From a virus: DNA of 28,461 nucleotides. The notes beneath the pieces are model-generated. The model was not told where the DNA came from, made no database searches, and worked only from the letters and a program-made list of their open reading frames with translations. The stretch's first letter is position 1. Each line of letters begins with the position of its first letter. Below, piece after piece: positions 4,301-28,461 of this stretch. A program made the translations under genes and the position numbers. The stretch lies in IMG/VR virus record IMGVR_UViG_3300025769_000618, positions 1-28,461 of that record; one strand, given 5' to 3'.

Positions 4301-4307
4301 TCATGGC
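4292..4307 (+). promoter_or_regulatory. Strong ribosome binding site and start of the major tail protein gene
   Basis: This is an exact 16-base copy (GAGGTTTAATCATGGC) of the translation start region of the capsid gene at 449-464. It is preceded here by TTG, giving a full GGAGG core at 4291-4295. Confidence 0.6.
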
Positions 4308-5619
4308 GGTCACTCATCGTTCACTATCAATCGCAAAAGAAACGACCTTCGGTTCACCCGATACAAACGGCATACCGTCTTCGACGGGCTTGACCTTCGT
4401 CTCGATCCCTTGCGAGCGCGACCCTATTGTCATCGCGGGCGAACCAGTCGTCAGCGAGAGAAACGACGCCCGCGACGGGTCTTACTTCAACGCGCCCGAA
4501 CCTGATACAGTTTGGTCAAACGGGGATCGTCTTCGTCGCCGTACTGGTCAAATCGTTTGTCGCGTTGACCTTACGACCATCGGTACAGCGGCGGCGAACT
4601 ACGATTCAAACTATCTCGGGTATCTACTCGGCGCGGGCTTCGCGACTCAAGCGCCGAGCGCTAACCTTAAGAGCGACACCGCGTCGGCAGTGACCTCGGT
4701 TAACCAATACACACCTAGCGCAGCCCCCGCGCTAGCTGACGTCGGCTTACTTGTCGGTTCAGAGATCAACGGTCGAGCCGAATACTCGGCGATCACTGAT
4801 AACGACGTCGCGGGCGACGTGACTGTATCACCCGCTTTTAGTGCGGGCTTTAGTGGTACACCGACAGTTCGCGGGCTTCAGACTTGGTATACACCGAGCC
4901 GAGCGGCAACCGGTGACTTTAACAGCTCAGTCGCCTTTAAAATCGACGGGGCGAGCTTTCAAACACTCGCCTTCGGTTGTGTTCTTGAGTCACTCAGTAT
5001 TACAGTTGATAACGGGCGCTTAATGGGCGAGTTCACCTATCAAGCCTCGTTCATTACAGATAATCATGGCGCGGCGAGTACTCCGATTGAGCCGGTTTAT
5101 AATACAGGTGCGCCCGCTTTCTTTAGGGGCTCTTATGCTGTCATCTCGGGCGGGTCGCCCGCTTCAAGCTCTAATGGTACAGTCGGCGAGACTCAATCAA
5201 GAGTCGCTCTCGATTGTGAGGACTTCTCGCTTACAGTTACGAACACTCTTACACCGCTCGGTTATTCTAATAACGTTATCGGTATGTCAGGTATGGATAT
5301 TAGCGATGTATCTGTTGAGCTCTCGCTTACTCTGTCTTCACCTTCAGCGACTGTCGCTGATGACTTCTTTAATCGTACAGTTCGCCAGGTCTTAGTCGGT
5401 ACAGGCCCACTTGGTGACGGTAAGGGGTGCGCGGTCATGTTGCCCGCCGCCGTCTTGACAAACGACCCTAGTGTTTATGATGTATCGGGTAATGATATTG
5501 TTCGACAGACTTTGACGTATCAGCAAGCTCGATATGCGGGCGACTTCACCACGTCAAGCTATGAGTCGAACGCGGGTAACTCACCCTTTAGAATCGGTCT
5601 AGTAGTAGGAAACGTGTAA
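4303..5619 (+). CDS. Major tail protein (tail tube)
   Basis: A 438-residue beta-rich protein, low in Cys and Lys and rich in Ser, Thr, Gly and Val, lies exactly between the tail terminator and the tail assembly chaperone, where siphoviruses carry the tube protein. The N-terminus (AVTHRSLSIAKETTFGSPDT) resembles tube-forming proteins that begin with a statement of 'simple, test-case' beta strands, and LESLSITVDNGRLMGEFTYQ near residue 225 is typical of tube subunits. It is longer than lambda gpV (246 residues), which leaves room for an extra surface domain. The conserved strong start region agrees with a very abundant protein. Confidence 0.75.
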   Translation: MAVTHRSLSIAKETTFGSPDTNGIPSSTGLTFVSIPCERDPIVIAGEPVVSERNDARDGSYFNAPEPDTVWSNGDRLRRRTGQIVCRVDLTTIGTAAANYDSNYLGYLLGAGFATQAPSANLKSDTASAVTSVNQYTPSAAPALADVGLLVGSEINGRAEYSAITDNDVAGDVTVSPAFSAGFSGTPTVRGLQTWYTPSRAATGDFNSSVAFKIDGASFQTLAFGCVLESLSITVDNGRLMGEFTYQASFITDNHGAASTPIEPVYNTGAPAFFRGSYAVISGGSPASSSNGTVGETQSRVALDCEDFSLTVTNTLTPLGYSNNVIGMSGMDISDVSVELSLTLSSPSATVADDFFNRTVRQVLVGTGPLGDGKGCAVMLPAAVLTNDPSVYDVSGNDIVRQTLTYQQARYAGDFTTSSYESNAGNSPFRIGLVVGNV

Positions 5620-5621
5620 TA

Positions 5622-6134
5622 ATGGCTTTATCGTTCGTGACGAGTACAGATATTGAAGTCGACGTCGTCGTAACCTGTGACCCCGCCGTCGAAGCGACTA
5701 TCGAGCAGAGAGCCGCCTATCTTCAGTCAGGCGACTTTAATAACCTCGGTTCAGTCGGTGAAGACGCGACAAGGTTTACGATCAGAGCTCTCTCGCCCGC
5801 CGAGCGTGAAAGAGCCGAAGTCGCCGCCGGTGCTTATACTCGAAGCGAACTAGGGCGCTTATTATGGATTGAAGCGCCGGGCAACGTTGAAGAGCGGGCT
5901 CGGTGGCATCATGAACTTGAGGACGATGAGAGAGTCGCTCTCGCTCAATATAACGAGTATCTATCTCGGGTATATATTGAAATGGTCAGAGAGTCACTTA
6001 TCGCGATCGATGGCGAAGAGAAGCACGTCGAGACCTTGCAACGTATACGACCCGACGAAAAGCGTACTCAGACGATCAGTGAGCTTGTACTTCATATTCA
6101 GCGACTCTCGCTCTTAGATTCTGCGGGAAAATAG
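5622..6134 (+). CDS. Tail assembly chaperone, short form (gpG analogue)
   Basis: This 170-residue acidic, helical protein begins 2 bases after the tail tube gene and ends at a TAG (6132-6134) directly behind a slippery heptamer. Tail assembly chaperones occur between tube and tape measure genes and come in two lengths made by frameshifting: the short form binds the tape measure protein and the long form recruits tube subunits. The sequence has RFTIRALSPAERERAEVAAGA near residue 55, common in this family. The protein is not expected in the finished virion. Position, size and the slip site all agree. Confidence 0.8.
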   Translation: MALSFVTSTDIEVDVVVTCDPAVEATIEQRAAYLQSGDFNNLGSVGEDATRFTIRALSPAERERAEVAAGAYTRSELGRLLWIEAPGNVEERARWHHELEDDERVALAQYNEYLSRVYIEMVRESLIAIDGEEKHVETLQRIRPDEKRTQTISELVLHIQRLSLLDSAGK

Positions 6135-6550
6135 CGGCGGCGGCTTCCGTTTGGCTAAGTCAAGCGGGCGGTCGCGCCTGGTCGTGTGAACAGTGCCAAG
6201 CTAAACCAGGTCTTCGACGCCTTCGCGGTAACTGCGGCGGCTCGTTTCGTCGTGGTCTACCTCAAGCGCTCGAAGACGAGCAAGGGCTTTACATCATGGG
6301 ATATCGTGTCGCACCTGACAGCGGCGAGAACTTTAGCGAACTTAAGATTCGCTCTTGCCCTGTCGCTGACGTCAACCGATTCGCCCCGATTATCCAAGTA
6401 TATAACCGACTCAAGAGCGGGCTAGTTAGTCTTACTGATCTATACCCGCGCCCGTCTTGCGCTTTGATAGAATCGATTGATATAATAAGCGCCAGTGTCG
6501 ATGAGGCTCAAAGACGAGCCACCGAGAGAGCGCTAAAAGAAAAGAGCTAA
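5622..6550 (+). CDS. Tail assembly chaperone, long frameshifted form (gpGT analogue)
   Basis: The predicted coding path is join(5622..6131,6131..6550), giving 309 residues: 170 from the short form plus 139 from the -1 frame. The T part starts IAAAASVWLSQAGG and carries three cysteines in WSCEQCQ and GNCGG, possibly metal binding. It then contains IRSCPVADVNRFAPIIQVYN and a helical C-terminus, a pattern known from T domains of other tail chaperones (a CPV motif followed by a helix). There is no good start codon with a ribosome binding site near the beginning of this frame; the first ATG, at 6296, would miss the Cys motif. This supports production only by frameshifting. It ends 1 base before the tape measure start. 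Confidence 0.8.
6125..6131 (+). promoter_or_regulatory. Programmed -1 ribosomal frameshift site GGGAAAA
   Basis: In the zero frame the bases read G GGA AAA followed at once by TAG, which is the canonical X XXY YYZ heptamer and differs from the lambda G/GT site (GGGAAAG) by its last base. Slipping back by one base lets both tRNAs re-pair on GGG AAA and reading continues ATA GCG GCG. The -1 frame is then open to 6550. GC-rich sequence directly downstream (6134-6145) may slow the ribosome. Confidence 0.85.
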
Positions 6551-6551
6551 C

Positions 6552-8618
6552 ATGGCGAATCAAGTAGTTGTCGAGGTCGTCTTAGAAGGCGCTGAGGAGG
6601 CTAGCCGAGGTCTAGGTAAGATCGGCGAGACTTCGGCGGCGATGGCTGATCGATTCGCCGATGGTAACGAGAAACTAGGCGAGGGTTTAGGCTCATTAGT
6701 TGGTAACGTTGAGGAGCTCGGCGGGGCGTTCAAAGAACTAGGGTCGACCGTTGGTAACACGTCTAAGATGAGCGCCGCTTCATTCGGTGCGCTTGTACCG
6801 GCAATCGGTGCAGTCGTCGCGGCGGGCTTCGCTCTATATGAGACCTTCTTAAACATTAGCGGGGCGGCTCAAGACGCCGAAGACCGAGCCGAGGCGATGG
6901 CAGCGGCGGCGGGCGACCTTGAAGCCAAGCTCGAAGCGCTTTCAGAGAATGGCATTGTTCCGACGACTAAAGACTTGAGGGCGTTCACTAAAGCGACGAT
7001 TCAAGCTCAACTCGCTAAAGAGCTATTACAAAAGAAGATCGAGAACGCCGAGAAGAGTTTTACAGGTCTAACGAAGGCACAAGACGAGGCGACCGCCGCT
7101 CAAAAGCGATATGCAAAGGGCAACATAGGCGACGTACTTTTAGAGTCGATCGGATATCATACTAGTTATAAGACCGCACTTGATAACGTCAAAGAAGCTG
7201 AGAAAGAGTTTAACAAGACTCTCGACTCGATCATACCAGCGCAAGAGAAGGTTAATAAGCTCGTCGCCGAAGCGGCGAAACAAGGCAAGGCGCTCGAAGA
7301 CCAAAGCGCCGAGGCGACGATCGGTCGTATTAAAGAACTAGCCGCTAAAGAGCAATCGATAAGCCTAGCGAGAGCAGAGATCGAGACGAGTGATAAGGCG
7401 CTTAAGAAGCGTCAACTTGAGATCGAGCAAAATAAGCAACTCTTAGAGCTGACCATCGATCGAAACAAAGAAGACGCTAAAGCCCTTCGAGAGATTGAGA
7501 AGCAGACACAAGCTAGACTTGACGCCGCGCTATCGGGTGAAAAACAAGAAGATATTATTCGCCGTCAATATGCGAAGCGGGCTCAAGAGCTAGACAAAGA
7601 GACGAATGATAAGCGGGTCGAGAATCGACGCAAGGCGACCAGGCTTAAGAAGCCGATCATCTTAGAAGACCTCGCCGCCGAGCGTATGCTTCAGCGCGAA
7701 CTAGAGATGATCAGGGCGCTTGAACTTCAATCGTTAGAGATCAACGGCGCTGATCAACTAGAGCTTATACGCCTTCGTTATGAAGATGAGCTCAAGCTAG
7801 CCGAGGATAACCATAATCTAATCACCATCGCCCGAATGAGGCGACAAAATGCAGAAGACCGAATCGTACAAGAGGACATAAGGCGAAGCGAAGAGGCGAT
7901 ACAGAATCGAAAGCTATTAGCGATCGAGTCGGCTGAGTTCGATCTAAGTTTGACCGCCGATTCGACGAGCAAGAAACTCGATCTCTTGACGCTAAGGTAT
8001 GAGAAAGAGCGACAGCTCGCCGGCGACAATGCCGAGATGATAACCGAGATCAACCGACGAGAAGAGCTAGAACGATCTCGCATACAAGAAGAGGCGATAA
8101 GCGCCCGTTATGTTCAACTTGAAGAGCTAGGTAAACAACTCGCCGCGGCGGGCGCAGAGGCGGCTTATGCTTCAATCGTTGCGGGCGAAGGCTTTCAAGA
8201 CTCAATCGGTCAGGCAATCTTCGCCCTCGGTCAGCAAGCGGCGGTCAAGGCGCTATTTCAAACAGGCGAATCAATCGCCCTTGCGGCGACTGGTAATCTT
8301 GTCGCGGCGGGCGCTGCACTTAAGGCGGCGGCGGTATATGGTACGGTTGCCACCGTCGCGGGCGTGACAGCTAGCAAGCTCGGTGTCGGCGGGGGCGGCG
8401 GCGGTGGGGCTAGTGCTTCGCCTTCGGGTCTCCCTCAGACTTCGACAGCGCCTCAAAGAGAGCAAGCCGAAGATCGACAGGTCGTCTATAATATAAACTT
8501 CGGCGGCTCGGTGATCTATGATAGCAAGACCGCCGCTGAACAAGCCTTCGCGAATCGTATCACTCAGCTCCAAAACCGAACGCCGCGAGGCGGTGTAAGA
8601 CCAAGACCGAGGGCTTAA
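6552..8618 (+). CDS. Tape measure protein
   Basis: The 688-residue protein follows the G/GT chaperone pair and has the classic layout: a Gly/Ala-rich N-terminal part, a hydrophobic stretch at about residues 78-100 (LVPAIGAVVAAGFALYETFL), a long charged helical coiled-coil region (about 105-530), an Ala-rich hydrophobic region near 545-615, then a run of glycines and a short basic end. It sets tail length and is ejected toward the host envelope. Using about 0.15 nm per residue, a tail near 100 nm would be expected, which is an estimate only. No lysozyme or peptidase motif is visible in it. Confidence 0.85.
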   Translation: MANQVVVEVVLEGAEEASRGLGKIGETSAAMADRFADGNEKLGEGLGSLVGNVEELGGAFKELGSTVGNTSKMSAASFGALVPAIGAVVAAGFALYETFLNISGAAQDAEDRAEAMAAAAGDLEAKLEALSENGIVPTTKDLRAFTKATIQAQLAKELLQKKIENAEKSFTGLTKAQDEATAAQKRYAKGNIGDVLLESIGYHTSYKTALDNVKEAEKEFNKTLDSIIPAQEKVNKLVAEAAKQGKALEDQSAEATIGRIKELAAKEQSISLARAEIETSDKALKKRQLEIEQNKQLLELTIDRNKEDAKALREIEKQTQARLDAALSGEKQEDIIRRQYAKRAQELDKETNDKRVENRRKATRLKKPIILEDLAAERMLQRELEMIRALELQSLEINGADQLELIRLRYEDELKLAEDNHNLITIARMRRQNAEDRIVQEDIRRSEEAIQNRKLLAIESAEFDLSLTADSTSKKLDLLTLRYEKERQLAGDNAEMITEINRREELERSRIQEEAISARYVQLEELGKQLAAAGAEAAYASIVAGEGFQDSIGQAIFALGQQAAVKALFQTGESIALAATGNLVAAGAALKAAAVYGTVATVAGVTASKLGVGGGGGGGASASPSGLPQTSTAPQREQAEDRQVVYNINFGGSVIYDSKTAAEQAFANRITQLQNRTPRGGVRPRPRA

Positions 8619-15890: not shown

Positions 15891-18485
15891 ATGGCGATTA
15901 AGTTTGATACATTCACGACGGCGGGCGGCGGTGCGAGTAGCCTTGACGACGTCACCACAGTCGGCGCGACAACGACGAACAGTATTACAGTCGGCGGGGT
16001 GACAATCGGTACAGAATACACCCTCCCTTCGACGGATGGTTCACCTAATCAATACTTAAAGACCGACGGCGCGGGCGCTCTCTCTTTCGCTTCTCTCGAT
16101 ATCACAGGCGGTCTTGTTTACCAGGGGAGCTATGACGCCTCAATAAATACGCCCGCTCTTACGAACGCCGAACAAGGCGACTTCTATATCGTATCAGCGG
16201 CGGGTACTCAGTTCGGTAAATCCTGGTCGATCGGCGATCACCTCTTAGTGAATGCCGATATGGGCGGATCAATCGATAACTCTAAAATCGATAAGATCGA
16301 CAATACAGAGACGACAGCAACTGAAGACGTCGCGGGCGTAATCGAGATCGCAACGAACGCCGAGGCGGGCGCGGGCACTGCGACAAACAAGGCGCTTGTA
16401 CCTAGTAATATCAGTTCGCTTGACCTCTCTTCGATGAATAACACGACGAGCGGCTTTATCGCTGATATTACAGGCGAGAACTTAGGCGAGCTATCTGACG
16501 TCACGATAACTTCAGCGACCTCGGGCGAAGTCTTAAAGTATGACGGGGCGTCATGGGTAGACGCTCAACTCGCTTATTCAGACTTGAGCGGCACGCCATC
16601 ACTTGCGACGGTCGCGACGACGGGCGCTTACTCTGACCTCACCGGCACGCCATCACTTGCGACGGTAGCGACAACGGGCGCTTACTCTGATCTTAGCGGT
16701 ACGCCGACGAATGTTAGCACATTCACAAACGACGCGGGCTACCTGACAGATATTACAGGTGAGAACTTAGGCGAGCTATCTGACGTCACGATCACCTCAG
16801 TGACCTCGGGGCAAGTCCTCAGCTATAACGGCTCGGCATGGGTTAACGCTGCGGCGGCGGGCGGTGCTTCGGCTCTTGATGACTTAACAGACGTCACGAT
16901 TACAGCGGCGGCGACGGGCGAAGTTCTACGCTATAACGGTTCAGCATGGGTCGACGCTCAACTTGATTACTCCGACTTAAGCGGTACAGCGCCGACACCA
17001 TTTACAGTCACAAATACGGCTGCGACTTCTTACACTGCAAGCGCTAACGAGATTATTAATCATACCGGTAGCGGCTCAGGCGCGGCAGTTATCACCATGC
17101 CGTCTTCAGCGGTAAGCGGCGACGTCGTAATCATTCGCAAAACGACCGGTCAAGGAACAATGATTACGATCAATGACCCTGGCGGCTCGAAGATTCAAGA
17201 CGTCAACATATTCCCATATACCGGAAATGTGATGGTCACATATGACGGTACTAACTGGATCGCACCACGCACTAACTACGACTTCCAAAGATCGACTTCA
17301 ACGGCGTTCACACTTTATGGTTATTGGTTCGGGCGCTTTGTCATCTTTGCTGACGGTAGTGACGGGAATACATTTACAGTAAACATTCAAGTATCAGCTA
17401 CATCATTACTAGAGGGTGCACGACAGCTGATCTTATGTCGCGGCGCTCGCGATCTCGTTATTACAAGCCCTTCGTCTGACATTGTTGATCCAACTGACGG
17501 GAATACGACAGATACGCTTGTTAATAGTGTAACAGTGCCAGCGCATGGCGGGATAGTTGAGTTATGGGTTAACGGTCAGGGTCAATATGTCATTAGCGCC
17601 CCACTCGCTAATCTAAGCACCGTAGCGACAACGGGCGCTTACTCTGACTTAAGCGGTACGCCATCACTTGCGACCGTCGCGACAACGGGCGCTTACTCTG
17701 ACCTCACAGGCGCACCGACAACCGTTAGCACCTTCACGAATGACTCGGGGTACTTGACCGATATTACAGGCGAGAGTATCAGCGACTTATCTGACGTCAC
17801 GATCACTTCGGCGACCTCGGGTCAAGTGTTGAGTTATAACGGCTCAGTATGGGTCAATAGTGCATCGTCGGGCGGGGCTTCGGCTCTTGATGACTTAACA
17901 GACGTCACGATCACTTCGGCGGCGTCGGGCGAAGTTCTACGCTATAACGGTTCGTCATGGGTCGATGCTCAACTCGCCTATTCTGATCTAAGCGGTACGC
18001 CGACACTTGCCACCGTCGCCACAACGGGCGCTTACTCTGATCTTACAGGTACGCCGACGAATGTTAGCACGTTCACAAACGACTCGGGCTACCTGACCGA
18101 CATAACGGGCGAGAGTATCAGCGACTTATCTGACGTGTCGATCACTTCGGCGACCTCGGGTCAAGTCCTCAGCTATAACGGCTCGGCATGGGTTAACGCT
18201 GCGGCGGCGGGCGGCGGCGGATGGACTTATAGCGCAATCACTGCCGACCCCGCGAACGCACAAACGGGGTATCATTACTCATGTACTGGTACATTTACGA
18301 TTACTTTACCGACGAGCGGCGTGAACTCGGGCGAAGAGATCAGAATCAAGAACATGGGTACGGGCTCAATAACGGTCGACCCTGGTACTCAAAACATTGA
18401 CGGGTCGACGACTGACTACGTTCTCGACGTTCAGTTCTCGGCGATTACCCTTGTTTCAACCGGTGCACATTGGGAGATTATCTAA
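15891..18485 (+). CDS. Tail fibre protein built from short repeats
   Basis: The 864-residue product shows six copies of a module of the form (S/T)DVxITxxxxG(E/Q)VLxYxGxxWV and eight copies of YSDL(S/T)G, five of them preceded by VATTGA. These repeats form the shaft type common in phage side fibres. Two non-repeat beta domains interrupt or end it: one at about residues 370-580, and a C-terminal one from about 775 that resembles the first part of the middle domain. The N-terminus (AIKFDTFTTAGGG) is likely the virion attachment end. It is preceded by AGGGGGTAATC before its ATG. Receptor recognition by the C-terminal part is an inference. Confidence 0.8.
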   Translation: MAIKFDTFTTAGGGASSLDDVTTVGATTTNSITVGGVTIGTEYTLPSTDGSPNQYLKTDGAGALSFASLDITGGLVYQGSYDASINTPALTNAEQGDFYIVSAAGTQFGKSWSIGDHLLVNADMGGSIDNSKIDKIDNTETTATEDVAGVIEIATNAEAGAGTATNKALVPSNISSLDLSSMNNTTSGFIADITGENLGELSDVTITSATSGEVLKYDGASWVDAQLAYSDLSGTPSLATVATTGAYSDLTGTPSLATVATTGAYSDLSGTPTNVSTFTNDAGYLTDITGENLGELSDVTITSVTSGQVLSYNGSAWVNAAAAGGASALDDLTDVTITAAATGEVLRYNGSAWVDAQLDYSDLSGTAPTPFTVTNTAATSYTASANEIINHTGSGSGAAVITMPSSAVSGDVVIIRKTTGQGTMITINDPGGSKIQDVNIFPYTGNVMVTYDGTNWIAPRTNYDFQRSTSTAFTLYGYWFGRFVIFADGSDGNTFTVNIQVSATSLLEGARQLILCRGARDLVITSPSSDIVDPTDGNTTDTLVNSVTVPAHGGIVELWVNGQGQYVISAPLANLSTVATTGAYSDLSGTPSLATVATTGAYSDLTGAPTTVSTFTNDSGYLTDITGESISDLSDVTITSATSGQVLSYNGSVWVNSASSGGASALDDLTDVTITSAASGEVLRYNGSSWVDAQLAYSDLSGTPTLATVATTGAYSDLTGTPTNVSTFTNDSGYLTDITGESISDLSDVSITSATSGQVLSYNGSAWVNAAAAGGGGWTYSAITADPANAQTGYHYSCTGTFTITLPTSGVNSGEEIRIKNMGTGSITVDPGTQNIDGSTTDYVLDVQFSAITLVSTGAHWEII
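16474..18215 (+). repeat. Direct repeats encoding the fibre shaft modules
   Basis: Nucleotide repeats follow the protein repeats. The block ACGGGCGCTTACTCTGA occurs five times (near 16618, 16675, 17627, 17685 and 18024), and near-identical copies of CTATCTGACGTCACGAT and TATAACGGCTCGGCATGGGT recur in the six shaft modules. A non-repeat domain from about 16990 to 17610 divides the array. Such identity at base level makes recombination between modules likely. Confidence 0.75.
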
Positions 18486-20664: not shown

Positions 20665-20961
20665 ATGGATATGAACGCTATTGATTACGGCACGATTCTC
20701 GCCTTTATCGCTTTGATTCTTAAGCAGCAGAATGACAAAGCACAAGCCGCCGAAGAACTAGGCAAGATGAAACAACAGCTAGTCACGCTTGAAACGAAGT
20801 CAGCTCAAGTCGACCAAAAGTTCAGCGAGATCGATTCTAAGTTGTCTCACCTCGTCGCGAGTAATGCCAGACTTGAAAGTTTAGTCAAGATGCTAATCTC
20901 TAGTAAGTCATCGACCGCCGCGAATCTGAAGTTCTTAGAGACTCCAACGATTAGCGGGTGA
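20665..20961 (+). CDS. Small coiled-coil protein with hydrophobic N-terminus
   Basis: This 98-residue protein has a short hydrophobic stretch (about residues 8-19, YGTILAFIALIL) followed by a long amphipathic helix (about 22-80, with KMKQQLVTLETKSAQVDQKF and ARLESLVKMLI). It starts one base after the preceding stop; ATG 20671 is an alternative. Its 3' end overlaps the end of the convergent RecT-like gene by 11 bases. It could be the last late gene, perhaps part of the lysis or envelope-remodelling group, but no function can be assigned. Confidence 0.4.
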   Translation: MDMNAIDYGTILAFIALILKQQNDKAQAAEELGKMKQQLVTLETKSAQVDQKFSEIDSKLSHLVASNARLESLVKMLISSKSSTAANLKFLETPTISG

Positions 20962-22048
20962 GCTCGTCGACGTACTCGTAAAGCGCCCAATCATTTGGGT
21001 CATACTTCTGAAGAGCCGCTTTGACCTTATCGGCGTCGGCGTCGATGGCGATTGAGATAGTCTCAACGAAGGCGGGCGCACTTAAGCGGTATTTAAGCCA
21101 GCTGATCGGTATATCTTTAACGATCGGGTATTGATGAGATAAGCCGCCATGAAGATCTGCGAGACGTTCGGCGCTGACTGTCTGCCATTCAGCGGGCAAG
21201 AACGAAGACCGCCTGATGACGTTATGACGAATCGTCGAATAGTAAAGCTCTTCGCGGTCTTCGGTGCTTAGTGAGTCAATGTCGATCTCTAATGACTTTA
21301 GCTTCGTGTCGACCTCATGACGGTTAATGTCTTCACTCTCGACAGCGTGCCAAAAGTCGGCGGTCGTGTCGAAGGTGTAAAGCGGGTCGGCGGCGACCTT
21401 CGGTTCGTCAATCTCAATCGGCTCGTAAGAGATCGGTGCGGGCGCTGGTGTCGGATGAACGGGCGGCGCTGACTGAGGTTGATTCGATCGGCTTAAGCCG
21501 TCGTCATAGCCAAATGATCGAGCGGTCAGTTCTTCTACCTCTCGCTCGCTTAGGTTCGAGTGATCTGCCATTTCGTCGATCGTATAAAGACCGCTGACAG
21601 CTTCAGAGAAGACTTCACGAACGAGCCAAGCTCTCGCCCGCTTCTTTAGCATATTCGCTCTTTGCTTATGCCATGACGCCTTGACGAGGTTCATTTGTTG
21701 AGCCATTTCGATGGTAAATGTAAAGCTGTGAATCGTGCCGGCGGGCTCGTCGACTCTCTCGGCTTCAACGGTGCAATGTTGGTCATTTGACGACACAACT
21801 TGAAAGCGCCTTACAAGCCCTTTAGCGTAACAGATACCGACGAGCGCATCACTCAAGAGGGCGGGCTTGCCTTGGATCACTGAGACGTTAGCTTGTACCT
21901 TGCCTAGATGATTACCGAAGTGGTGACCGAACCATGCATGAGCCTTGATAAGATCATGAGCTTCGCGGGCGTTCGTGGTGAGAATGTTAGCGAGTCTCTC
22001 AAGCTCTTCGCCGGTCTTAGGAATCCAAAAGTCATTTAAGGTGTTCAT
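20951..22048 (-). CDS. RecT-like single-strand annealing protein with long C-terminal extension
   Basis: The product has 365 residues. Residues about 25-185 follow the RecT pattern: a glycine-and-aromatic segment (WFGHHFGNHLGKVQ), KPALLSDALVGICYAKGLVRRF, a strand block ending in SFTFTIEMAQQMNLVKAS, then W-K-RANMLKKRARAWLVREVFSEAVSGLYTIDEM, the characteristic ML-RA-R-G-Y-E motif. RecT-type proteins anneal complementary strands during phage recombination and end repair. After a Pro-rich linker (about 193-208) comes an unassigned 150-residue acidic part. No exonuclease gene lies beside it. It is the last gene of a leftward operon, starting at ATG 22048. Confidence 0.8.
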   Translation of the reverse strand: MNTLNDFWIPKTGEELERLANILTTNAREAHDLIKAHAWFGHHFGNHLGKVQANVSVIQGKPALLSDALVGICYAKGLVRRFQVVSSNDQHCTVEAERVDEPAGTIHSFTFTIEMAQQMNLVKASWHKQRANMLKKRARAWLVREVFSEAVSGLYTIDEMADHSNLSEREVEELTARSFGYDDGLSRSNQPQSAPPVHPTPAPAPISYEPIEIDEPKVAADPLYTFDTTADFWHAVESEDINRHEVDTKLKSLEIDIDSLSTEDREELYYSTIRHNVIRRSSFLPAEWQTVSAERLADLHGGLSHQYPIVKDIPISWLKYRLSAPAFVETISIAIDADADKVKAALQKYDPNDWALYEYVDELTR

Positions 22049-27080: not shown

Positions 27081-27358
27081 ACGCCGAGCCGATCTATTAT
27101 ACGCCCCGCGACACCTTCGATCCCGCTGTATTAGAGGTTAAAGACGGGCTAGTGTTCTACTCTCGATCTAAGCTCATGAGTATATTAGTTGAAGAGTACG
27201 TCACTAACCTTGAAGCGCTTACTCAGTATCGAGGGTCGCCCCGTTCACATCTTGAGCGACTCGCCGAGCGATCGGCGGTCAAGTGGCTGATCTACATTCG
27301 ACATTCTCAGCATTACGGCGCGATCGAACGCCGACCGGTGATCGTTGACGATGAGTGA
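27077..27358 (+). CDS. Unknown small protein between terminase subunits
   Basis: The 93-residue product is not recognised. It is soluble, with an N-terminal aromatic segment (EPIYYTPRDTF), a helix VEEYVTNLEALTQYRG and a basic helical part (SHLERLAERSAVKWLIYIRHSQHYG). It overlaps the small terminase by 4 bases and the large terminase by 8, which implies tight co-translation. Being locked between both terminase subunits suggests a packaging accessory role, which is inference only. Confidence 0.45.
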   Translation: MNAEPIYYTPRDTFDPAVLEVKDGLVFYSRSKLMSILVEEYVTNLEALTQYRGSPRSHLERLAERSAVKWLIYIRHSQHYGAIERRPVIVDDE

Positions 27359-28461
27359 AGATAAGCCACCGCTCGACCTTAACGAGCTTCAACGCCAAAT
27401 CATCGGGCGAATCATCAGGCGCGATAAGTTTATCTCGGCTCGGTGTGGGTGGGGCTCGGGTAAGACCTCGGCTTTAGTCTTTAGTATCTTAATGGTCGCA
27501 CGCGCCCGACCTGGTAAAAGCATATTGATCGTCACCGATACGACACCGCGCTATAACTCAGTACTTCACCCCGAAATATCAAAGTGGCTTGAGCCGCTCG
27601 GGTGGTTCTTTAATCACACTCATAAAACTTGGACGGATCCACACACAGGATCATCGGTCTATGCTCGAAGCTATTATCGACCAGGTACAAGAGAAGCGAC
27701 ACACAACCCGCTCGAGGGTCTTAACATTACCTCAGGCGTATGTCTCATCGACGAATGCCAAACACTAAGCGCCGAAGTCGCATACAAAGCGCTCGGGCGT
27801 CTAAGGTCAGGCGCGTCGCCGATCTTAATCATGGTCGGCTTGCCCGTCGTTGATGCTTGGTGGTGTTCGATGGCTGAGAGCGCGGGCTATTCACCTTTAC
27901 TCTTTAGCTCATACGTTAATCAGCAAAATCTATCTGATGATTGGTTCGAGGCGACTAAATATCTCCCCGCTGACGAACGCGAAGCGATGGTCATGAATAA
28001 GCCTAAGCCGCCTTCGGGTCTCGTCTATAATGAGTTTAATGAGTCAATGATCATCGATGACTTTGAATATCATGAGTCGATGACGGCAAGGGTCGCGATT
28101 GACTGGGGCTTTAGAAAGCCGAGTGTACTGATCATCGTTTATGATGAGCGCCGCGAAGCCTCGGTCATCGTCGCCGAGTTCAACCCGAAAGAGGTAACGA
28201 CCGAGCAGCTAGCTCAGATGATATTATCGGTGGCATGGTCTCGAGAGCTCCGAGCGCTAGCGCCTTCGCCTCGAATATGGCTAGACGGCGGGGTCGCTGA
28301 CAAAGCGGGCAAGGCTCGAAACGATCAGACAGGTGCTTCGGCATTTAGAGCGATGAGAGCTTCGCCGCCTAAGGGTCTCGGCATGGCTTTAAGGTCAACT
28401 CAAGACCCGATTAGGATAGACATACTGAACGGCGTTCAACGACTGAAGAGAGCCTTCGCGA
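27351..28461 (+). CDS. Terminase large subunit (3' end outside window)
   Basis: The visible 370 residues include the packaging ATPase Walker A at residues 32-40 (CGWGSGKTS) and Walker B with the catalytic acid at 131-136 (CLIDEC), then the start of the RNase H-like nuclease domain, with acidic residues Asp251 (VAIDWGF) and Asp312 (IWLDGG). The enzyme cuts concatemeric DNA and drives it into the head. It starts at ATG 27351, overlapping the previous gene in ATGAGTGA. The frame stays open to the last base, so the C-terminal end of the nuclease domain and the stop lie beyond the window. Confidence 0.9.
   Translation, partial: MSEDKPPLDLNELQRQIIGRIIRRDKFISARCGWGSGKTSALVFSILMVARARPGKSILIVTDTTPRYNSVLHPEISKWLEPLGWFFNHTHKTWTDPHTGSSVYARSYYRPGTREATHNPLEGLNITSGVCLIDECQTLSAEVAYKALGRLRSGASPILIMVGLPVVDAWWCSMAESAGYSPLLFSSYVNQQNLSDDWFEATKYLPADEREAMVMNKPKPPSGLVYNEFNESMIIDDFEYHESMTARVAIDWGFRKPSVLIIVYDERREASVIVAEFNPKEVTTEQLAQMILSVAWSRELRALAPSPRIWLDGGVADKAGKARNDQTGASAFRAMRASPPKGLGMALRSTQDPIRIDILNGVQRLKRAFA

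Follow-up and report, generated by a model that had tools for sequence, protein, structure and literature searches.

Comparative evidence for programmed -1 frameshifting in a probable G/GT-type tail chaperone gene pair of uncultured phages

Introduction

Just upstream of the tape measure gene, an uncultured phage carries two abutting reading frames in different registers, with a slippery heptamer at their junction. Does this locus hold two separate genes, one broken gene, or a pair from which ribosomes make both a short protein and a frameshifted fusion? We address this question in a 28,461-nt stretch of DNA (the window, meaning the whole stretch analysed) and in its relatives.

In phage lambda, G/GT frameshifting yields a pair of products in a ratio of about 30:1; G binds the tape measure, whereas T binds the tail tube (PMC5009743). 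Such frameshifting is widespread though sequence similarity is low (PMC5009743); it has been measured at about 6-7% in HK97-like cases (PMC3711429), and downstream structures have often been noted (PMC3483164). We conclude, with a probability of about 95%, that the locus encodes a tail assembly chaperone pair of the G/GT type and uses programmed -1 ribosomal frameshifting for its expression, the slippage itself and its efficiency being predicted.

Results

Layout of the locus

The features of the locus are as follows.

4303..5619, + strand: putative major tail protein (tail tube), named by position; homologue directly upstream in 95/95 relatives
5622..6134, + strand: G-like tail assembly chaperone, 0-frame ORF, 170 aa, TAG stop; 28-sequence alignment and realigned PDB matches
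6125..6131, + strand: slippery heptamer G_GGA_AAA; slip site kept in 96/96 distinct loci
6131..6550, + strand: C-terminal T-position domain, -1 frame, 139 aa, TAA stop; conserved from residue 1, pLDDT 93
6132..6134, + strand: 0-frame stop TAG right behind the heptamer; adjacent in 88/96 loci, 6 nt later in 8/96
6136..6178, + strand: RNA hairpin, likely frameshift stimulator; minimum free energy -27.2 kcal/mol, family z -2.3, compensatory changes
6552..8618, + strand: tail length tape measure protein; phrog_1538, E 5.5e-9, homologue downstream in 72/73 relatives

The heptamer GGGAAAA is read in the 0 frame through GGA (6126-6128) and AAA (6129-6131), and the TAG abuts it. The -1 frame is free of stops from 6083 to 6547 and is ended by TAA at 6548-6550, so that 139 codons past the shift complete a 309-aa fusion; the sole ATG/GTG/TTG-initiated ORF of that frame in this region spans 6296-6550 and encodes 84 aa. 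The first-pass annotation had described the G GGA AAA TAG site, the 139-codon -1 frame, the 309-aa fusion and the ATG at 6296, and every one of these numbers was reproduced from the sequence. Slip heptamers in frame are rare in the forward genes of the window, with 7 in 7528 codon steps, and this one, which abuts a stop and persists as a slip site in all 96 distinct loci, exceeds what chance would give.

The window itself is an incomplete linear piece. Its left end lies close to the major capsid gene (460-1464), and its right end cuts through an ORF (27345-28460) weakly similar to large terminases; nothing in its 28,461 nt was recognised as a portal gene, and contigs of relatives reach 35-39 kb. 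Elsewhere, a fibre-like ORF (15891-18485) carries repeated YSDLSGTP / FTNDSGYLTDITGE motifs and has no Pfam match above the cut-off. A reverse-strand ORF among the early genes (20951-22048) shows a weak RecT match (E 0.0034, below the cut-off), and its neighbours include HTH regulators, an AAA ATPase and SSB.

Conservation of the slip site

Relatives were collected by searching viral contigs with the -1-frame protein, which gave 59 loci, the majority matching from residue 1, and by an alignment-based scan that reported 240 matching stretches, of which 80 were kept; another scan added distant loci. With duplicates removed, 96 distinct loci formed the set for site counts. Every one of them has a slip site: GGGAAAA in 90, GGGAAAG in 4, CCCAAAA in one (L064) and a run of ten A in one (L066). 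The first-pass annotation had staked its reading on relatives keeping the heptamer and the -1 frame; across about 96 loci both are kept, together with the cysteine cluster of the -1-frame domain.

The codon whose third base opens the heptamer varies, encoding E, S, A, Q or R, and yet that third base is G in 90 of the 91 aligned loci and C in the locus with CCC. In 60 of the 96 loci, a stop closes the -1 frame 0-3 nt before the heptamer, and the frame change is therefore confined to the heptamer there. The TAG is adjacent to the heptamer in 88 loci and six bases further on in 8; on the tree, these delayed stops occur at three or more separate points (L109/L119, L113 and L017/L021), plus L066. 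We do not claim selection for UAG as such, because a conserved alanine (GCN) at T2 forces G after TA. No conserved Shine-Dalgarno-like stimulator was found upstream. In L066, the most distant relative, the A run replaces the heptamer (L066:4975-5000), and transcriptional slippage could act there too.

Selection on the two reading frames

At the heptamer, the frame under purifying selection changes from 0 to -1. Across a sample of about 39 loci, pN/pS over the last codons before the site is 0.38 in the 0 frame against 1.7 and 0.9 in the others, and after the site (codons 2-36) it is 0.31 in the -1 frame against 1.2 and 1.4. Because synonymous differences approach saturation, we rely on the contrast between frames alone. 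In the alignment, the -1-frame product is conserved from residue 1, directly at the shift site.

A conserved hairpin downstream of the slip site

A downstream hairpin, absent from the first-pass annotation and newly found here, has compensatory changes and is selected beyond the demands of protein and codon usage. In 25 sampled loci, the 70 nt that follow the heptamer fold with a lower energy than their composition predicts (mean z -2.1; z < -1.5 in 80%), with neighbouring stretches near zero. When shuffling preserves both the protein and local codon usage, the mean z of T codons 2-19 is -2.3 over 63 loci, compared with -0.1 to -0.7 in ten other windows treated in the same way. The window's own hairpin (6136-6178, -27.2 kcal/mol) reaches a z of only about -1.5 to -1.75 when taken alone.

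The longest helix begins 7 or 8 nt past the heptamer in 49 of 64 sequences, and its register varies by lineage, mostly by one or two codons and usually in one-codon steps. RNAalifold gave no consensus structure for the whole sequence set because the stem register differs between lineages, and covariation was then counted at a fixed register. For an 11-pair helix in all 64 sequences, covariation is 0.326 versus 0.192 (sd 0.014) after shuffling, and sliding the same helix along these sequences gives at most 0.189. The 24 sequences that fold in this register reach 0.513 versus 0.228, a group picked by fold and hence biased toward pairing. Collectively, these data indicate that the hairpin is likely a frameshift stimulator.

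The G-like protein and its neighbours

A homologue of the putative major tail protein lies upstream of the pair in all 95 relatives, and a tape-measure homologue lies downstream in 72 of 73; the upstream protein itself has no Pfam or PHROG name. G gave no significant hit in Pfam or PHROGs, whether alone or across 28 family members, no sequence similarity to the lambda and HK97 chaperones was detectable, and a PDB sequence search with profiles of the family found no match.

The G model (pLDDT 88) was realigned to 302 PDB chains. HK97 gp13 (2ob9) ranks best (Z 6.1, rmsd 3.1, 85 residues) and Bacillus subtilis YqbN (3klu), a protein of the skin/PBSX prophage genes with a tail chaperone role, ranks second (Z 5.3, 98 residues). 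Both matches are moderate, and the third-ranked chain has Z 4.1; with Foldseek alone, the tail-chaperone matches were not significant (E above 1). The two tail chaperones at the head of the predicted fold list agree with the gene's position. Gene order and, at these moderate scores, the predicted fold support the tail-chaperone reading of the first-pass annotation.

The T-position domain

C19, C22, C35 and C76 of the -1-frame domain (window 6185-6358) are invariant in 28 aligned sequences, a pattern that makes this cluster a possible metal site. The T part, singly and with its 28 members, has no significant profile match in Pfam or PHROGs; no sequence similarity to lambda or HK97 chaperones was detected, and the hhalign probability against lambda T is 0.25%. 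A fold search of the PDB with the confidently predicted model (pLDDT 93) returned no match, which does not make the fold new. The first-pass annotation had proposed a T-like domain; its cysteine cluster is conserved, and the label follows from position and architecture, as comparison with known T domains found no match in sequence or in fold.

In the viral model library, the T part matches an unnamed 84-aa entry, A0A516LZP6, with 54% identity over 81 columns. This entry is consistent with a piece that a gene caller kept after an internal start.

Alternative explanations

Abutting ORFs in different frames would look alike in a single sequence if one indel had split a single ORF through gene disruption or assembly error. 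The identical layout of 96 distinct loci, with each frame under purifying selection on its own side, refutes this explanation, and its probability is negligible. Alternatively, ribosomes could terminate at TAG and re-initiate at a start codon overlapping the stop or lying downstream, giving the -1-frame protein as a product of its own. In most loci the stop does overlap an ATA triplet (A_ATA_G), ATA being a listed rare start, and the window has an ATG at 6296. That triplet is not constant, however (ATA 84, ATC 4, GTA 4, ATT 3, AAA 1), and the position of the earliest -1-frame ATG/GTG/TTG ranges across loci from residue 3 to residue 98. The invariant W8, R15, W17, C19 and C22 precede the first usable start in about two-thirds of loci, which argues against separate initiation. 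Since re-initiation would also leave the conservation of the heptamer and the GGG to CCC change unexplained, we consider it very improbable.

Transcriptional rather than ribosomal slippage on the A run is harder still to credit: the ten-A run of L066 would suit it, whereas the window and 95 of the 96 loci have only 3-4 A at the site, and the GGG/CCC triplet and the ribosomally spaced hairpin would be left without a role. The least improbable alternative, itself unlikely, accepts frameshifting and takes the product for another tail-region protein. The lack of sequence homology to known chaperones and the unmatched T fold would fit such a product, but the tail-tube and tape-measure flanks in essentially all relatives and the moderate fold match of G to two tail assembly chaperones speak against it. 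A frameshifted tail chaperone pair therefore remains our preferred reading.

Discussion

Under the model that we propose, most ribosomes would stay in the 0 frame and terminate at TAG, giving the 170-aa G-like protein. In a minority, tRNA-Gly and tRNA-Lys on GGA AAA would re-pair one base back on GGG AAA, aided by the hairpin some 7-8 nt downstream and perhaps also by the adjacent stop codon, and the shifted ribosomes would read the 139 further codons of the 309-aa fusion. By analogy with lambda, G would bind the tape measure protein and the -1-frame domain would recruit the tail-tube protein.

Lambda gpG/gpGT shares with the pair described here a G_GGA_AA(G/A) heptamer, a -1 shift near the end of G and the gene order tail tube, G/T, tape measure (PMC5009743), but the proteins have no sequence similarity. 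In lambda, the 0-frame stop lies 15 nt past the heptamer, compared with 0 nt in the window, and the 60 nt downstream show no excess structure (z +0.67), whereas the family here has a selected hairpin. HK97 gp13/gp14 likewise forms a -1 frameshift fusion at the same place in the gene order, and gp13 heads the realigned fold matches of G; the two differ in sequence, without similarity, and in the length of G (170 aa here versus 128 aa in HK97), and the T part here has a cysteine cluster unmatched in any library. YqbN gives the second-best realigned fold match, though no sequence match to G was found. Burkholderia phage KL1 gp18/gp19 comes close in layout, with a predicted GGGAAAC directly before the 0-frame stop and a predicted stem-loop downstream (PMC3483164). 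It differs in being a single predicted case with an extra gene before the tape measure, and is likened here by description.

Every single element of the system thus has precedent. The novelty lies in the protein family, its lack of GenBank phage relatives, the T part with its cysteine cluster and the comparative evidence for a stimulator. A tblastn search of GenBank phages with G and T recovered no relative among 50,697 records at the sensitivity used. As to the host, the sole match in the genome-contig scan was truncated at the edge of a Sphingomonadales MAG contig and too short to use.

A bolder interpretation, which we hold only tentatively and consider rather doubtful, is that the -1-frame product represents a new kind of T domain, with no relation to lambda T, that may bind metal through C19, C22, C35 and C76. 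A large group of uncultured phages would then have reached the G/GT architecture with a new module, and the hairpin, together with the stop that abuts the heptamer, would drive frameshifting at a rate different from that in lambda.

These findings extend the G/GT frameshift to a phage group with 96 or more distinct loci, one scan alone having reported 240 matching stretches. In this group, gene calling breaks up or shortens the protein, as the public viral entry A0A516LZP6, with only an 84-aa matching piece, probably illustrates. For a downstream stimulator hairpin at a tail-chaperone frameshift, the family further supplies evidence from covariation and from codon-controlled shuffles, where reports on single genomes can only suggest one.
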